A DNA stretch of 64,000 nucleotides from Halorubrum xinjiangense (GTDB taxonomy: Archaea; Halobacteriota; Halobacteria; Halobacteriales; Haloferacaceae): positions 1 to 64,000 of the forward strand of contig NZ_FNBO01000003.1 in the NCBI RefSeq assembly GCF_900102375.1. Reading direction: 5' to 3'. Made by a program: the position numbers and the translations under genes. The stretch's first letter is position 1. Each line of letters begins with the position of its first letter. The notes beneath the pieces are model-generated. The model was not told the origin of the DNA. It saw only the letters and a list, made by a program, of their open reading frames with translations, and made no database searches. This document shows, one piece after another, positions 46,252 to 61,461 of the stretch.

Positions 46252-48216
46252 ATGAGCGGAGAACACGCCTTCAGGGGCTTGCTCTCGCTCGACCGCCCGG
46301 ACGTGGCCGTCGCGCGGCTCGGCGTCGTCGCCTGCCTGCTCCTGCTCGGGCTCCGGCTGCTGACGTCACAGCCGCTGCTCGTGATCATCCCGGTCGCCGG
46401 CGGCGCCGGCTGCCTCCTCTACCTCGGCGCTCGGCGCCGGCGGTCCGCCGCCTTCGAGTACCCGACGATCCCCCGGAGCGCGGCCGGCTACCTACCCGCG
46501 GGCGTGTTCGCGGGGCTGGCTGGCCTCGTCGTGTTGCTCCGCCTCTCGGGGACCCGCACGCTCCCGATATACCTCCTGACGGGGGCAATCGGGGCGGCCG
46601 TCCTCGGGCAGGCGCTGTTCACGCCCGACGACGAGCTGGCGCCCGGCCTGGTGGTGACGCAGATCGTCGTCGCCGCCGTCGTGATCCGGTTCTCGGTGCT
46701 TTTCGCGACACCCGGGTTCATCGGCGTCGACGTCTGGACGCACGTCCCGGACTTCGTCGCGGGCATCGTCGAGGCAGAGTCGCTGTCCGCCATCGCCGAG
46801 AGCAAGTACAGCATGGCGCCGTTCTACCACGCGATCGGCGCCGCCGGGGCGCTCGTCCTCGGGTCGGCGCGCGTGGGGACGTACCTCACAGTCGGGCTGC
46901 TCGTGCCGCTGTCGGCGCTGTTCGTCTACGCCGCCGGGAGCCTGATCCTCCCGGTCCGGTGGGCGCTGGCCGCGACCGCGCTGTACGCGTTCGCGGACCA
47001 GTTCGTCAGGTGGGGGCTCCACGTCATCCCGACGAGCCTCGGCCTCGTCTTCTTCCTCGGGGCGCTGTACGCGCTCACGGCGCTGCTCGTCACCGACGAC
47101 CTCCGGGCCGGCGGGCTCCTCGCCGCGTTCAGCCTCGCGACCGTGTTCACCCACCAGGTGTCGACGGCGGTCGTCCTCGTGCTGCTCGGCGCCGCGGCCG
47201 CGTCGGTCCTCGCGATTCGGGTGTTCGGCGGGCCGCTCGACGGTCCCCCGGCCGCGACCGCGGTGACGGTCGTCGGGACCTTCCTCGCCACGCTCGTCGT
47301 GACCGTCGTCTCGTGGGTGAACACGCCGTGGTACGGCGACGACCCGTTCCTCTGGCAGATCCTCGACACGCTCGCCGCGACGCTGGTCGGCGAGGCCGGC
47401 TTCCTCAACCTCGCCGGCGGGTCCGGGGGCGGTGCCGGCGCCGCGGAGGCGGCGGGACCGCTCGCCGGCGTCGTGCCGTACGTCGAGTGGTTCGGCTTCG
47501 CCGTGCTGCTCGGGGCGGCGATCGTCGGCGGGCTGGCGATGGCGCGCTCCGAGACGCCGCCCGCGGTCACGCTCAGCTACCTCGCGAGCGCGGCCGCGAT
47601 GTTCGTCGTCGTGTTCGGCTTCTCGATCTTCGGCGTCCGGACGATCATGCCCGGCCGGTGGATCGCGTTCATGTACGCGCCGTTCGCGATCGTCGCCGCG
47701 CTCGGGCTGTTCCACCTCTCGCAGCACGCGTCGCGGCGCGTGATACTCGTCGTGTTCGTCGTGGTCGCGCTCGGCTACCCCGCGACGATGGTCGTCGCCG
47801 AGAAGGCGACGCTCGACAGCCCGGCGTTCGACGACGAGTACCCGCGCTTCTCGTACACGGAGTCCGAGATCGCCGCGGTCGAGTCGATCAGCGCGGCGTA
47901 CCCGCCCGGAGAGGACCGGGCCGACATCCGGAGCGACCACCCGTACTACACCCTCCTCGAACGGTACGGCGGTTACAGCGGCGACCGGATCGCGGTCGAC
48001 GAGTCCGGGGCTGATTCCGCCCAGCCGTTCGTCTTCCGCGAGTACCAGACGACCGGTCCGGCGACGTTCGAGACCACGGCCGAACCGGCCGGGACGGTCC
48101 GGAGCCGGACGTTCGGCGCCGACCACGTCTGTTCCGGCGCCCGGAACCACGTGTACGCAAACGGCGACGTCACGCTGTGTACGGCCGCCGCCGCGGGACC
48201 GGGGGCGGACGCGTGA
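46252..48216 (+). CDS. Polytopic membrane protein, GT39-like
   Basis: 654 residues, with about 11-13 hydrophobic segments. FIGVDVWTHVPDFVAGIVEA lies in an exterior loop like the acidic motif of membrane glycosyltransferases of the PMT/GT39 type. The last 120 residues are soluble (SDHPYYTLLERYGGYSGDRI, SYTESEIAAVESI). The WWDYG motif of AglB is absent, so it is not the oligosaccharyltransferase. It could use a lipid-linked sugar donor. It overlaps the next gene by GTGA. Confidence 0.75.
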   Translation: MSGEHAFRGLLSLDRPDVAVARLGVVACLLLLGLRLLTSQPLLVIIPVAGGAGCLLYLGARRRRSAAFEYPTIPRSAAGYLPAGVFAGLAGLVVLLRLSGTRTLPIYLLTGAIGAAVLGQALFTPDDELAPGLVVTQIVVAAVVIRFSVLFATPGFIGVDVWTHVPDFVAGIVEAESLSAIAESKYSMAPFYHAIGAAGALVLGSARVGTYLTVGLLVPLSALFVYAAGSLILPVRWALAATALYAFADQFVRWGLHVIPTSLGLVFFLGALYALTALLVTDDLRAGGLLAAFSLATVFTHQVSTAVVLVLLGAAAASVLAIRVFGGPLDGPPAATAVTVVGTFLATLVVTVVSWVNTPWYGDDPFLWQILDTLAATLVGEAGFLNLAGGSGGGAGAAEAAGPLAGVVPYVEWFGFAVLLGAAIVGGLAMARSETPPAVTLSYLASAAAMFVVVFGFSIFGVRTIMPGRWIAFMYAPFAIVAALGLFHLSQHASRRVILVVFVVVALGYPATMVVAEKATLDSPAFDDEYPRFSYTESEIAAVESISAAYPPGEDRADIRSDHPYYTLLERYGGYSGDRIAVDESGADSAQPFVFREYQTTGPATFETTAEPAGTVRSRTFGADHVCSGARNHVYANGDVTLCTAAAAGPGADA

Positions 48217-49373
48217 CGCCCCCGAAACGCGGCTCCCGAGGCGAGTCCGCCGGCGTCGTCGGGGGGTGGGGCGACCTCGCGGTCGCGGCGGTCCTGACGG
48301 TGGCCGCGGCCGCCGTCCTCCTCTCCGCGGCTCCACCGCCGCCGCTCCGGTGGGGGTTCGGCGTCCCGTTCCTCCTCGTTTGGCCGGGGTACGCGGTGGT
48401 CTCCGCGCTGTATCCCGAGCGGCCGAGTGAGGAGAGCACCGCGGCCTCTGGGACGCATTTCGGGGGGAGAAATTCGGGGGGAACGTATTCGGAGACCGCG
48501 TCCCGCGCGGCGGCGCTCGCGAATCCGGGGTGGACGGCACGGGCCGCGCTCTCGCTCGCGTCGAGCGGCGTCGTGGTCGCGCTGGTCGTGATCGCGGCGA
48601 ACCGGGTGGCCGCCGTCCGCACCGGCCCCGTCGTCGTCGGCCTCCTCCTCGTCACGCTCGCGGGGCTCGGCGTCGCCGCGGGCCGTCGCCTCCTCGTCGC
48701 GCCAGAAGACCGGGCGGCGCCCGTCGGGGCGATGACCGGAGGCGTCGCGACGGTGCGGGAGGGCGGCAGCGGACCCGCCGGCGGACCGAGCGGCGGTCCC
48801 TTCACTCGCGGGACCGGCGGCGGGTCGGCCGCGACGAAGCGGCAGACCGTCGCGCTTGTCGTCGCCGCGGCCCTCTTGGTCGTGACCGTTGCGGTCGCCG
48901 GCGCGGTCCCGCCGCAGGGCGAGGGGTTCACCGAGGCGACCCTGCTCGCCGAGAACGAGAGCGGCGACCTCGTCGCGACCGACTACCCGACGACGTTCGT
49001 CGCGGGCGAGGGACACCCCCTGACGGTCGCGATCGAGAACAACGAACACCGGCCGGTCACCTACGAGGTGGTCGTCCTCGCACAGGACGTCGACGCGGAC
49101 GGCTCCGTAACGGCGCAGCGGCAGATCGACGAGTTCGACGTCGACACGGACCACGGCGAGCGCGAACTCGTCGAGCGACAGATCGCGCCGGAGACGACCG
49201 GGGAGGGCGTCCGCCTGCGCTTCCTGATTTATACCGACGGGGCGGACGGAGCCGACGGCGAAGGGAGCTCGGCGGCCAACGGGAGCGACACGGCGGACGC
49301 CGAGGTCGACCCCGAGGACGCGGACCAGGTGCTCCAGCTGTGGATCGACGTCGTCGACGAGCGCGACGAGTGA
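48213..49373 (+). CDS. DUF1616 membrane protein
   Basis: 386 residues from a GTG that overlaps the previous stop (48213-48216). Four hydrophobic segments are followed by an extracellular-type domain with HPLTVAIENNEHRPVTYEVV. PLRWGFGVPFLLVWPGYAVV is the DUF1616 opening. A Gly/Ser-rich linker occupies about 190-215. Members of this family frequently adjoin GT39-like genes in haloarchaeal glycan regions; the biochemical role is unknown. Confidence 0.82.
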   Translation: MTPPKRGSRGESAGVVGGWGDLAVAAVLTVAAAAVLLSAAPPPPLRWGFGVPFLLVWPGYAVVSALYPERPSEESTAASGTHFGGRNSGGTYSETASRAAALANPGWTARAALSLASSGVVVALVVIAANRVAAVRTGPVVVGLLLVTLAGLGVAAGRRLLVAPEDRAAPVGAMTGGVATVREGGSGPAGGPSGGPFTRGTGGGSAATKRQTVALVVAAALLVVTVAVAGAVPPQGEGFTEATLLAENESGDLVATDYPTTFVAGEGHPLTVAIENNEHRPVTYEVVVLAQDVDADGSVTAQRQIDEFDVDTDHGERELVERQIAPETTGEGVRLRFLIYTDGADGADGEGSSAANGSDTADAEVDPEDADQVLQLWIDVVDERDE

Positions 49374-54124: not shown

Positions 54125-54187
54125 GTCGCCCCGGAGCGAGGCTGGGTCGCCCCGGAGCGAGGCTGGGTCGCCCCGGAGCGAGGCCGT
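54125..54187. repeat. 21-bp tandem repeat, three copies
   Basis: GTCGCCCCGGAGCGAGGCTGG occurs at 54125 and 54146, and with two changes near the end at 54167. A degenerate fourth unit follows (GTCGCCTCCGGAGCGCGG). The multiple of three keeps reading frames open, which explains the repeated PGRPSLA in a minus-strand frame. Confidence 0.85.
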
Positions 54188-54370
54188 GTCGCCTCCGGAG
54201 CGCGGCGACGTCGCGTTCCGACAGCCGTCCGGGCCCGAGAGCTGTGTACGGCTGAGTTACTCGCTGCGGGCCGGCCATACCGGGCGACGGCGTCGCCGCG
54301 ATCGGCACGTCCGCCGCCGCGCCGCCGCGGCGGCCGCCGCTCAATAAGCTGAGCGAAGTCATTTATACCA

Positions 54371-54401: not shown

Positions 54402-55364
54402 GTGGGTGTGGTGAATTCGAACACAGACGACGGCGAACGGTCGACGGATGACGGGGGCACAAACACGCGACGCCAGTTCGTGGCCGGATCGGCCGGCGCG
54501 CTCGGCGGCGCCGCGCTCGGGGGATCGCTCGTGGGGTCGGCGGTCGCACAGACCGACGACGAGGACGGCGAGGACGGCGAGGACGGGGAAGACGGCGGAG
54601 ACGGCGAAGAGCCGGTCGAAAACGAGTTCGAGGACGACGTCGACATCCTCAACTTCGCCCGCACGCTGGAGTTCCTCGAAGCGAGCTTCTACGCACAGGG
54701 GTTAGAGAACATCGGCGAGGAGGACCTCTGTAACTGTCAGCTTTTTGGCGAGGAGGACGACCCGCGCCGCGAGCAGGTCTACGAGGAGCTCCAGACGGTC
54801 CTGGCGCACGAGGAGGCCCACGTGGAGGCCCTCGGCGCGGCGGTCGAGGAGCTCGGCGGCGAGCCCGTCGAGGAGCCCGAGTTCGACTTCGGGCTCGCGG
54901 TACAGTACCCGGTGGCGTTCCTCGCGACGGCGGCGCAGCTGGAGGACGTCGGCGTGTCCGCGTACGCCGGCGCCGCGCCCTACATCGAGAACGAGGCCCT
55001 GGTCGCCCCGGCGCTCGGGATCCACAGTGTCGAGGCCCGCCACGCCTCGTTCCTGCGGACGCTCAACGGGGACTCCGGGTTCCCGAACGCGGTCGACGAG
55101 GCCCGGTCGCGCTCGGAGGTCGAGGCGCTCATCGCTCCCTTCGTCGTCGGCATGGAGGCGCCCGAGGGCGAAGCGCCCGACGACGGCATGGACTCGCCCG
55201 ACGGTAACGGGACGGACACGCCCGACGACAACGGCACGGACATGCCCGACGACAACGGGACAGACATGCCCGAAGACAACGGCACGGACGTTCCCGAGGA
55301 TAACGGAACGGACGTCCCCGACGGCAACGGCACGGACGACAACGGCACTAACACCAGTTCCTAA
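54402..55364 (+). CDS. TAT-exported ferritin-like protein with NGT-rich tail
   Basis: 320 residues from a GTG (others lie at 54408 and 54411). A twin-arginine signal with RRQFVAGSAGALGGAALGGS lies at about 25-45, then an acidic (DGE)n stretch. The ferritin-like domain (about 80-250) has EFLEASFYAQGLENI, AHEEAHVEALGAAVEEL and GIHSVEARHASFLRTL for the helix-bundle metal sites. The last 55 residues repeat DNGTD(M/V)P and hold seven NGT sequons plus NTS. It is likely secreted or surface-bound and N-glycosylated. A T6 tract follows the stop. Confidence 0.82.
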   Translation: MGVVNSNTDDGERSTDDGGTNTRRQFVAGSAGALGGAALGGSLVGSAVAQTDDEDGEDGEDGEDGGDGEEPVENEFEDDVDILNFARTLEFLEASFYAQGLENIGEEDLCNCQLFGEEDDPRREQVYEELQTVLAHEEAHVEALGAAVEELGGEPVEEPEFDFGLAVQYPVAFLATAAQLEDVGVSAYAGAAPYIENEALVAPALGIHSVEARHASFLRTLNGDSGFPNAVDEARSRSEVEALIAPFVVGMEAPEGEAPDDGMDSPDGNGTDTPDDNGTDMPDDNGTDMPEDNGTDVPEDNGTDVPDGNGTDDNGTNTSS

Positions 55365-55994: not shown

Positions 55995-56915
55995 ATGGAC
56001 GGAAAACGCGTACTCGTGACTGGCGGATCGGGGTTCATCGGCGGAGCGATCGCGGCGTCGCTCCGGGCGGACAACGACGTGCGGACGCTCGACACCGACC
56101 CCGATCCCCCGGCGGGAGTCACCGCGATCGAAGGCGACGTGCGTGACCGCGAGGCCGTCGAGGAGGCGGTCGCGGACGTCGACGTGGTGTTCCATCAGGC
56201 GGCGATCGTCAGCGTCGAGCGGTCGATCGACGACCCGAACGAGACCCACGCGGTGAACGCGACGGGGACCCTGCGCGTGCTGGAGGCCGCCCGCCGACAC
56301 GACGCCCGGGTCGTGGCGGCGTCGAGCGCGGCGGTGTACGGCGACCCGGAGGGGGTCCCGCTCGCCGAGGGCGCCCGGCTCGAACCGACCTCGCCGTACG
56401 GGCTGAGCAAGCTGGCGCTGGACCACTACCTCCGGCTATACCACGAGCTGTACGGCCTCGAGACCGTCGCGCTCCGCTACTTCAACGTCTACGGGCCGGG
56501 ACAGACCGGCGGCGACTACGCCGGCGTCATCGAGGCGTTCCTGCGCGCGGCGCGCTCCGGAGAGCCCCTGACGGTCCACGGCGACGGCGAGCAGACGCGC
56601 GACTTCGTCCACGTCGACGACGTCGTGCGGGCCAACCTCCTCGCCGCGGAGACGGACGCGGTCGGCGCGTCGTACAACGTCGGCACCGGCGACTCGGTGA
56701 CGATCCGCGGCCTCGCGGAGCGCATCCGACGCGCGGTCGGGAGCGATTCGCCGATCGTCCACGGCGACGCGCGCGACGGCGACGTCCGCCACAGCCGCGC
56801 CGACATCAGCAAGGCCCGCGAGGAGCTCGGATACCGGCCGTCCGTCGGCCTCAGCGAGGGACTCGAGACGCTCGTCGAGGACCGACGGGTCTCCTCCGCC
56901 TCGCAGAACAGGTGA
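55995..56915 (+). CDS. NAD-dependent epimerase/dehydratase, nucleotide-sugar type
   Basis: 306 residues, extended SDR. VLVTGGSGFIGGAIAASLRA binds NAD, AASSAAVYGDPEGVPLAEG and YGLSKLALDHYL carry the active-site Ser and YxxxK. LRYFNVYGPGQTGGDYAGVI and DFVHVDDVVRANLLAAE are typical of UDP-glucose 4-epimerase-like enzymes. It suits the sugar theme. CTACTAATCC about 30 nt upstream is a probable promoter, and T7 follows the stop. Confidence 0.91.
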   Translation: MDGKRVLVTGGSGFIGGAIAASLRADNDVRTLDTDPDPPAGVTAIEGDVRDREAVEEAVADVDVVFHQAAIVSVERSIDDPNETHAVNATGTLRVLEAARRHDARVVAASSAAVYGDPEGVPLAEGARLEPTSPYGLSKLALDHYLRLYHELYGLETVALRYFNVYGPGQTGGDYAGVIEAFLRAARSGEPLTVHGDGEQTRDFVHVDDVVRANLLAAETDAVGASYNVGTGDSVTIRGLAERIRRAVGSDSPIVHGDARDGDVRHSRADISKAREELGYRPSVGLSEGLETLVEDRRVSSASQNR

Positions 56916-57891: not shown

Positions 57892-59586
57892 TCACTCCCG
57901 CCGACGGCCGCGCGTTGCGACGCCCGCCGTGACCGCCAGTGCGAGGAGCGCGGCGACGACGCCGAACCCGGGCGTCTCGTCCTCGCTCGCCTCCGTCGCG
58001 TCCGTCGTCGAGTCGTCCGCCGTTTCGGTCTCCGAGTCGTTCGACGCCGCGTCCTCGTCCGTCTCGTCGGCACCCGTCTCGTCGGTGTCCGTCGAGTTGG
58101 TGTCCGTCGAGTTGGTGTCCGTCGAGTTGGCGTCCGTCTCGTCGGTGTCCGTCGAGTTGGCGTCCGCGTCCGCCGCCTCCGAGTCGGCCGTCTCGTTCGC
58201 GCTCGACGTGGCGTTCGCGTCCGCCGCCGCCTCCCCACCCGGGGTCGTGTTCGCGGGCGACTCCGCCCCGGCGGTCGCGTTCGACTCGCCCCCAGTCGTC
58301 ACCGCGAACAGCGAGAAGCCGCGGGTCTCGGCGTCGACGGTGACCCGTCCGTCGGCGCTCGTGGCCTCGGCGTCGAGCTCGGTCCAGGCCGTCCCGTTCC
58401 AGCGCACGACCTCGACGCGGTCGAGGGCCGACTCCTCGAGCGTCTCGTTCGAGTAGGCGAACGTGACCGTCGCGTTCTCGTCCGCGAACTCGTCGTCCGG
58501 GTCGATCCGATACATCCCGACCGCCTCGTCGGGCGCGGTTACGCCCTCGGGGAGCTCGCGGAGCTTGTCGACGATGAGCAGGCCCGAGACGGTCTCCCGA
58601 TCGAAGTCGACGACGGCCACCTCGTTGGCCGGGAGCTCGACGACGCCGTCCCCCTCAACTGCCCCGTTGTCTCGCTTCTCGACATACGTCGGGATGCTCC
58701 AGCCGGAGCTGGACCCCTCGTCGTCATCCTTCGCGGAATCGTCGGAGGAGTTCGCGGACCCGCCGTCGTCATCGTCCGTGGACTCGTCCGAGCCGTCCGT
58801 GGAATCGTCCGAGCCGTCCGAGCCGTCTGAGCCGTCCGTCGACTCCGACGACTCCGACTCGGTGACAGTGACCTCGGTCGTCAGTCGGTCGCCGGTCGTG
58901 GCGGCCGCGAGCGACCAGTTTCCGGCGCTGTCCGCCGTGTCCGTCCACGTGAGCGTCTGGCTTTGAGTCTCGCCCGGCGCGAGCTCCACCGCACTCTCCG
59001 CGACGCTGTCGCCGTCGACCTCGATCCACACGTCTCGCGTCGTGACGTTCGGGTCGTCGTTCGTCACGGTGACTGTCGCCGTCAGGTCGTCGCCGGCCTC
59101 GACGGGCGAGTCGGTCTCGACGCCCTCGACGGTGAAGAACGAGCCCTCGTCGATCTGGACCGTCCGGTTGTCCGCCCCGTGGTCGCTCACCACCTTGATG
59201 CGCTCCGTCCCGGCGTCACCCGGGCCGGTGTCCCACGTGAGCGTCACGTCCTTGCTCTCGTTCGGTTCGAGCGTCAGTGCCGGGCTGGCCACCGAGTCGA
59301 CAATATTGTTGCGGTCGTCTTTGAGGTGGATCTGCTGGCTGTCCGCTGTCGTCCCCTCGTTCGTGACCGTCGCCTCGACGACGAGCGCGTCGCCCTCGGT
59401 CACCGCGGCGTCGTAGTCGGTTATCTCCACCGCGAAGAACGGGTCGCCGTCGGCCGTCTGCGACGGCGCCTCGGCCGCGACGCCGACCGCGCTCAGCGCG
59501 CCGAGCGCGCCGAGGACGAGCAGCAGTGCGGCGAGCGTTGCGATAACCACGAACTTCGTCGGTCTGTCGGGTGACTCCGATCGCAT
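57892..59586 (-). CDS. PGF-CTERM surface protein with CARDB-like domains
   Basis: 564 residues. A hydrophobic N-terminal segment (VVIATLAALLLVLGALGALS) is likely a signal. Two CARDB-like Ig modules follow: FAVEITDYDAAVTEGDALVV, ESKDVTLTWDTGP and SFFTVEGVETDSPVEAGDDL. A Ser/Asp-rich linker leads to a PGF-CTERM-like pre-domain; the tail TPGFGVVAALLALAVTAGVA plus RRRE is the archaeosortase recognition. The low-complexity stalk has several NST sequons. Its product is presumably anchored to the cell surface and glycosylated. Opposite in direction to the HAD gene. Confidence 0.87.
   Translation of the reverse strand: MRSESPDRPTKFVVIATLAALLLVLGALGALSAVGVAAEAPSQTADGDPFFAVEITDYDAAVTEGDALVVEATVTNEGTTADSQQIHLKDDRNNIVDSVASPALTLEPNESKDVTLTWDTGPGDAGTERIKVVSDHGADNRTVQIDEGSFFTVEGVETDSPVEAGDDLTATVTVTNDDPNVTTRDVWIEVDGDSVAESAVELAPGETQSQTLTWTDTADSAGNWSLAAATTGDRLTTEVTVTESESSESTDGSDGSDGSDDSTDGSDESTDDDDGGSANSSDDSAKDDDEGSSSGWSIPTYVEKRDNGAVEGDGVVELPANEVAVVDFDRETVSGLLIVDKLRELPEGVTAPDEAVGMYRIDPDDEFADENATVTFAYSNETLEESALDRVEVVRWNGTAWTELDAEATSADGRVTVDAETRGFSLFAVTTGGESNATAGAESPANTTPGGEAAADANATSSANETADSEAADADANSTDTDETDANSTDTNSTDTNSTDTDETGADETDEDAASNDSETETADDSTTDATEASEDETPGFGVVAALLALAVTAGVATRGRRRE
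58075..58165. repeat. 15- to 18-bp repeats encoding NSTDT(N/D)
   Basis: GTGTCCGTCGAGTTG recurs five times with small gaps. In the coding direction it gives NSTDTNSTDT. Each repeat adds an N-glycosylation sequon. Confidence 0.75.
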
Positions 59587-61005: not shown

Positions 61006-61461
61006 TCAGTCGTTCCGGTACTCCTTCTGGAACCCCTTGAATTCGCTTCGGTGGGCCTCTTCGTCGGCGAGGATGCCGACCGCGAGGTCCTCGGTCACCG
61101 GGTCGTCCGCCTCCTCGGCGGCGTCTATCAGGTCGTGATACGTCGAAATGGCGGCCTCCTCAGCGTCGAGGACGCCCTCGATCACCGCGAGGACGTCCGT
61201 CGAGTCCTCGGGCGGCTGAAGCGACTCCTGTCGGGCCGTGAAATCGGTCGAGGACGGGGGTCGCGCGCCCAGCTGCTTGAGGCGTTGGCCCAGTTCGTTC
61301 GAGTGGGCGAGCTCCGCCTGGATGTCCTCGTGGAGGCTCTCTTTGATCTCCTCGGCCCGAACGCCCTCGAGGATGATCGCGTTCGTCTGGTAGTTCATCA
61401 CGGTCTCGATCTCGTCCTCGTAGCTCCGCCGCAGCAGCTCGACGACGCGTTCTGATGACAT
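61006..61461 (-). CDS. Ferritin-like domain protein
   Basis: 151 residues, four-helix bundle. EDEIETVMNYQTNAIILEGV, DIQAELAHSNELGQRLKQLG, EGVLDAEEAAISTYHDLIDA and DEEAHRSEFKGFQKEYRND carry Glu/His at the positions of the di-iron or Dps-type site. It looks like the short archaeal ferritin-like family near DPSL/bacterioferritin. It probably stores iron or handles peroxide. ATG at 61461 is preceded by GTATACTCGGCC-like AT-rich sequence to the right. Confidence 0.85.
   Translation of the reverse strand: MSSERVVELLRRSYEDEIETVMNYQTNAIILEGVRAEEIKESLHEDIQAELAHSNELGQRLKQLGARPPSSTDFTARQESLQPPEDSTDVLAVIEGVLDAEEAAISTYHDLIDAAEEADDPVTEDLAVGILADEEAHRSEFKGFQKEYRND

Follow-up and report, generated by a model that had tools for sequence, protein, structure and literature searches.

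The window analysed is a stretch of 64,000 nucleotides from Halorubrum xinjiangense, and the gene under study, at 54402-55364 on its forward strand, was read as an open reading frame of 320 amino acids with a GTG start codon. The GTG codons at 54408 and 54411 appear equally likely as starts, because the relatives L003 to L005 align from VVNP/VVHP. The features of the locus are as follows.

54362-54367, forward strand: TATA-like box (tttata), read directly some 40 bases before the start codon and presumably a promoter element
54402-54548, forward strand: putative Tat signal peptide, residues 1-49, with the twin arginine at residues 23-24, the cleavage site AVA/Q and no lipobox
54549-54635, forward strand: acidic N-terminal linker, residues 50-78, without sequons (pLDDT about 40 over the first 20 residues)
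54636-55151, forward strand: Ferritin_2 four-helix bundle and C-terminal helix, residues 79-250
55152-55361, forward strand: predicted disordered acidic tail, residues 251-320, with eight N-X-S/T sequons, the first at 55206 and the last at 55350
55362-55364, forward strand: stop codon; the tail is a free C-terminus with no hydrophobic anchor

A 21-bp tandem repeat (GTCGCCCCGGAGCGAGGCTGG, 3.9 copies) lies at 54125-54206 of the window, in the gap that precedes the gene.

The twin arginine is followed by a hydrophobic run and then by an AxA site of the signal peptidase I type, and the match to the NCBIfam model TAT_signal_seq (TIGR01409) was sub-threshold (14.7 bits; cut-off, 16.7). The arrangement given in the earlier note, a ferritin-like domain behind a twin-arginine signal, was confirmed, with PF13668 (Ferritin_2) matching at amino acids 78-222 (E 2.6e-39; 135 bits against a curated Pfam cut-off of 24.7). 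PF13668 was the sole Pfam family up to E 1, and PF00210 (classical ferritin/Dps) gave no match in the protein. The gene is the sole Ferritin_2 match of its own genome; among 52 genomes of the genus, 9 matched the protein at E 1e-10 or better, and a Ferritin_2 match was obtained in 128 of 391 genomes sampled from the larger group that makes up the class. Bacterial plasmid homologues were found in 22 plasmid records. The window holds a second ferritin-superfamily gene (61009-61461, reverse strand) with a PF00210 match, weaker similarity to rubrerythrin and no evident export signal, which is unrelated to the protein with the sequon tail.

Relatives were collected from the better-scoring matches listed and the hits within the genus, together with four loci from a separate search, and the resulting 147 ORFs were reduced to 136 distinct sequences by exact identity. 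With Tat and lipobox labels called by regular expressions, on stretches some of which cut the N-terminus or end of the ORF, 102 of the 103 single-domain haloarchaeal relatives among the matches listed carry a Tat-like signal and none carries a lipobox. Export is thus ordinary for Ferritin_2 proteins; the view that it is odd because ferritin-like proteins are usually cytoplasmic, expressed in the earlier note, rests on ferritins in general and does not hold for this family. The single-domain protein differs from the two-domain haloarchaeal Tat lipoproteins (e.g. L043 and L047), in which the Ferritin_2 domain occurs twice behind a Tat-type signal; among the matches listed, 29 of the 33 two-domain forms combine that signal with a lipobox, and none has a tail.

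By sequence, the nearest solved structure is that of the tardigrade protein RvY_06210 (E 3e-9). An AlphaFold2 model built from five sequences had a mean pLDDT of 70, with blocks mostly of 82-96 over helices 1-3 and 57-88 around a split fourth helix; most of the tail scored under 50. With this model RvY_06210 ranked first in Foldseek (E 1.7e-5) and also in VIA, where it scored Z 20.8 and the next-best family 15.2. The accessible part of PMC11616004 identifies RvY_06210 as RvFeMP-1 (Ramazzottius varieornatus; PDB 8kce, 8w9k and 8wai), a Ferritin_2 protein reported to be a metabolite phosphatase, and its assignment as the tardigrade Mn-dependent peroxidase was rejected; g12777 is described as a beta-sandwich protein in the available part of PMC9145152.

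Candidate metal ligands (E90, E93, E137, H140, E181 and E211, with H214 also conserved), distributed over all four helices of the bundle, were mapped by sequence alignment to RvY_06210 and the ligands given in PMC11616004, with residue numbers shifted by three. RvFeMP-1 shares with the haloarchaeal protein the Ferritin_2 four-helix bundle and an export signal (a secretory one is reported), at about 25% identity, and its Glu51, Glu90, His93, Glu132 and Asp162 match E90, E137, H140, E181 and E211; the bundle would bind two metals. The pattern E90, E93, E137, H140, E181, G184, E211 and H214 is intact in 100 of the 103 single-domain relatives among the matches listed. The two proteins differ in that Asp135 on helix 3, which is essential in RvFeMP-1, is absent here and replaced by Gly184, in the additional glutamate E93 on helix 1, and in the IgG-like domain of RvFeMP-1, in place of which the haloarchaeal protein has the sequon tail.

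Deinococcus DRB0118, plant PCC13-62 and yeast Rds1 form a clade that, like the haloarchaeal protein, has no IgG-like domain. As far as the accessible text of PMC11616004 describes it, DRB0118 is a Ferritin_2 protein likewise reported to be a metabolite phosphatase, with low activity measured on an MBP fusion; it has Gly at the Asp135 position, a loss that a Glu on helix 1 is proposed to offset, and no sequon tail is mentioned in that text. By analogy, E93 could compensate for Gly184. Since DRB0118 carries the glycine and is reported active, the haloarchaeal core may work in the manner of DRB0118 and not exactly through the site of RvFeMP-1; that it is a dimetal hydrolase of the DRB0118 kind is a real, if tentative, possibility. 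Somewhat more doubtful is the alternative that the bundle is an exported iron- or peroxide-handling ferritin-like protein and no phosphohydrolase, for the dimetal motif (E, ExxH, E, ExxH) is common to the ferritin superfamily and the second-best fold matches were bacterioferritins and Dps, but the protein matches PF13668 and not PF00210, RvFeMP-1 is clearly the best match by both sequence and fold, and two tardigrade members and DRB0118 are reported as phosphatases in the part of PMC11616004 available.

The tail comprises 70 residues and, as the earlier note had read it, seven NGT sequons and a final NTS, spaced by 8, 8, 8, 8, 8, 5 and 3 residues. It is encoded by a 24-bp tandem repeat (55178-55337, 6.7 copies), the copies of which are not identical DNA, because the NGT codons vary synonymously (six different 9-mers among the eight sequons) while the peptide is unchanged. 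Shuffling of the tail gave a mean of 1.14 sequons against the 8 observed, and the description of the tail as rich in sequons therefore stands beyond its composition.

Among the matches listed, the 103 single-domain relatives comprise 47 with tails shorter than 20 residues, 40 with low-complexity acidic tails and 16 with other, longer C-terminal extensions that are not of low complexity (e.g. L074, L093 and L127). Of the 40 low-complexity tails of the same matches, 30 contain sequons, numbering three or more in 18 of these, and 10 contain none; the total is 125 sequons, whereas the shuffled mean was 34.4 and the maximum 56 in 1000 shuffles. The serine or threonine falls at +2 from asparagine in 125 of 190 cases (66%) and in no more than 38% at any other position between -5 and +5, again among the matches listed. 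Repeats within one tail are not independent, and the fairer figures are hence those obtained with identical contexts collapsed (94 of 143 at +2, at most 36% at other offsets) and per tail: among the 31 listed tails holding both N and S/T, 30 lie above their own shuffle, and N-X-S/T is commoner than the reversed motif in 23 and rarer in 2. Proline, which makes up 181 of the 2481 tail residues, never occupies X in the 125 sequons, and NXT to NXS stands at 109:16 compared with a T to S ratio of 384:123 in the tails, among the matches listed.

Outside the tails, sequons are scarce. The cores of the same 40 proteins contain 4 in 6819 amino acids, the 40-residue stretches that precede them 1 in 1600, and the acidic, Thr-rich linkers of the 29 Tat lipoproteins 1 in 1146, all among the matches listed. 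The 215 ORFs of the own genome were called by a codon-bias heuristic, which mislabels a few of them (it marks the epimerase at 55995 as exported and AglB as cytosolic), and with these flags the low-complexity stretches contain 3 sequons in 1136 amino acids when cytosolic (AglB accounts for two and a DUF1616 protein for one) and 17 in 504 when exported (8 in the ferritin-like tail and 9 in the protein at 57892-59586). The comparison of sequon positions between Tat and Sec proteins of the own genome covered 24 ORFs flagged exported, a small sample with crude calls. The enrichment of sequons is real at the level of the family and specific to the free tails, and the family-wide pattern is sharp and testable. 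In the literature searched, with most subscription journals outside it, no report of sequon tails on haloarchaeal Ferritin_2 proteins was found.

These counts bear on the alternative that the tail is a mere disordered acidic solubility or spacer segment, in which the sequons are a by-product of slippage in D/N/G/T-rich repeats and glycosylation is absent or incidental. The 24-bp tandem repeats agree with it, as do the differences in unit between sister proteins, which slippage predicts, the tails among the matches listed that have no sequon, and the sharing of units by neighbouring repeats, which robs the counts within one tail of independence. Against it stand the preference for +2 even after collapsing, the absence of proline at X and the favouring of NXT among the matches listed, and the near absence of sequons from the comparable linkers of the listed lipoproteins and from cytosolic stretches; we regard this alternative as unlikely. 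The trait is nevertheless dispensable, since among the matches listed a sequon is lacking from 10 of the 40 low-complexity tails and a real tail from 47 of the 103 relatives.

In a quick tree of the 103 single-domain cores among the matches listed, all 40 low-complexity tails fall within one group of 59 rows (support 87), and the label of three or more sequons changes 10 times, at least 7 of these changes being forced by the starred branches. The repeat unit is DNGTDMP here, DNGTDTP in L008, EENGTDAP in L003 and GNETDTGNGT in L005, and in further relatives NGTDNGMDDST (L006), NGTEMPTD (L053) and NLTNGD (L130); as near relatives differ in their unit, the units turn over while the sequons persist or return. 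L010 (genome G042, contig C3, 3851-4813) joins the small clade of the Halorubrum protein (support 94) and is likely a dead enzyme, judging from the replacement of most ligands (pattern GQKHASEH); its tail is poly-Glu and ends in PENG repeats without a sequon. It is one case of enzyme site and sequons decaying together, in a genome that has AglB.

The own genome encodes one STT3/AglB-type oligosaccharyltransferase, on contig C21 and not on the contig of the window. AglB was found in all 39 genomes that bear tails, in 37 by PF02516 and in two by protein query, and in one of the 39 (G035, 79% complete) as a fragment only; loss of AglB as the cause of the sequon-free tails was accordingly rejected. 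The protein combines an export signal and N-X-S/T sequons with an oligosaccharyltransferase in its genome; its tail is probably a substrate of AglB. In Haloferax volcanii, AglB-dependent glycans are reported on the predicted Tat substrates HVO_1945 (four sites), HVO_C0054 (three) and HVO_1624 (one) in the accessible part of PMC8241124, Table 1 of which also gives the DUF1616 protein HVO_2173 as N-glycosylated at four sites. The window encodes a DUF1616 protein at 48177-49370 (forward strand), one low-complexity stretch of which includes a sequon.

The earlier note had paired the tail with glycan assembly in the window and had taken it for a possible glycan-decorated anchor. The first part stood in so far as genes for a glycosyltransferase, a DegT aminotransferase, a GFO/IDH oxidoreductase, a sulfatase and an epimerase do lie in the window. 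A conserved gene neighbourhood was rejected, because tblastn of the window genes against the loci of six relatives recovered the ferritin-like gene alone (with flanks of about 1.5 kb on each side for L008 and L010), and AglB lies on another contig. As to the anchor, no lipobox, no C-terminal hydrophobic window and no match to PGF-CTERM or another NCBIfam sorting signal was found in the protein, and to judge from these the tail itself is no anchor. A glycan-decorated tail that fixes the protein in the S-layer, or to a polysaccharide of the cell surface synthesised by the window's glycan genes, would be consistent with their presence there and with the relatives, since the lipid-anchored ones are two-domain forms (29 of 33 among the matches listed) without a tail, so that the tail could replace lipid retention. 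It is nonetheless improbable, given the missing sorting signals, the lack of any window neighbour near the six relatives and the position of AglB; moreover, the association of lipobox with domain number may be no more than a feature of a single clade.

Haloarchaeal surface glycoproteins of the same genome that are unrelated to the ferritin-like protein also carry sequon arrays, in segments of low complexity that are acidic or rich in Gly/Pro; one of these proteins ends in a hydrophobic segment and one is a lipoprotein. The window encodes at 57892-59586 (reverse strand) an exported protein without a Pfam match, in which 17 sequons follow the signal; many of them fall within an acidic stretch rich in Ser/Thr (NSTDTNSTDT) that precedes a hydrophobic segment at the C-terminus. 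It appears to be a surface glycoprotein of the PGF-CTERM type. At about 136.7 kb of contig C4 (L173) lies a gene for a Tat-like lipoprotein consisting nearly entirely of acidic repeats with 9 sequons, and at about 20.8 kb of contig C12 (L172) one for an exported protein whose tail, rich in Gly/Pro/Ser, contains 19 sequons. As the C4 and C12 proteins carry such arrays, the tail is a shared surface module and not unique to this enzyme; as one of the own-genome proteins with similar tails is a lipoprotein and one has a signal that does not look like Tat, the link to Tat is not exclusive.

The reading that we prefer, with moderate confidence, is that of a secreted dimetal enzyme which is folded before Tat export and the flexible tail of which is glycosylated by AglB after export. 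The Tat system carries folded cargo. The bundle would fold in the cytoplasm with its two metals bound, be exported in the folded state and be released by signal peptidase I at AVA/Q, and the oligosaccharyltransferase would have poor access to sequons buried within it because the cargo is folded. The C-terminal tail would stay unfolded and accessible, and membrane-bound AglB would modify several of its sequons after export. The resulting acidic, glycan-bearing brush may maintain the solubility of the enzyme, shield it from proteases and retain it in the cell-surface layer, a role in solubility, protection or retention that we put forward with reserve. The metal site would then act at the cell surface, and its most likely activity would be that of a metabolite phosphohydrolase, as in RvFeMP-1 and DRB0118. 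In this account the actual glycosylation, its timing, the retention and the enzyme activity are what we infer. Sequons in the folded part are compatible with Tat export, since the cores of 11 of the 16 relatives with other extensions carry one, among the matches listed.

A broader and more speculative form of the preferred reading, which we hold to be rather unlikely, is that archaeal Tat cargo is N-glycosylated by way of dedicated, fast-evolving, disordered C-terminal landing tails, with sequon arrays repeatedly rebuilt by selection from unrelated units and replacing the lipid anchor for retention or stability. Since few sites in a folded core can be reached, selection would rebuild the sequons at the free end.

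Organisms able to withstand desiccation and UV repeatedly turn out to carry Ferritin_2 proteins, and DRB0118 appears, in the accessible part of PMC1274311, to be essential for desiccation resistance. The haloarchaea are a group in which an export signal is carried by nearly all single-domain Ferritin_2 forms (102 of 103 among the matches listed). If the tail is glycosylated, the site of action would be fixed outside the cell; the cleaning of nucleotide pools, the role proposed for tardigrades, would then need rethinking, and a possible role outside would be to scavenge nucleotides or phosphate from brine as it dries. The tails would also provide a clean test of how pre-folded Tat cargo becomes N-glycosylated.
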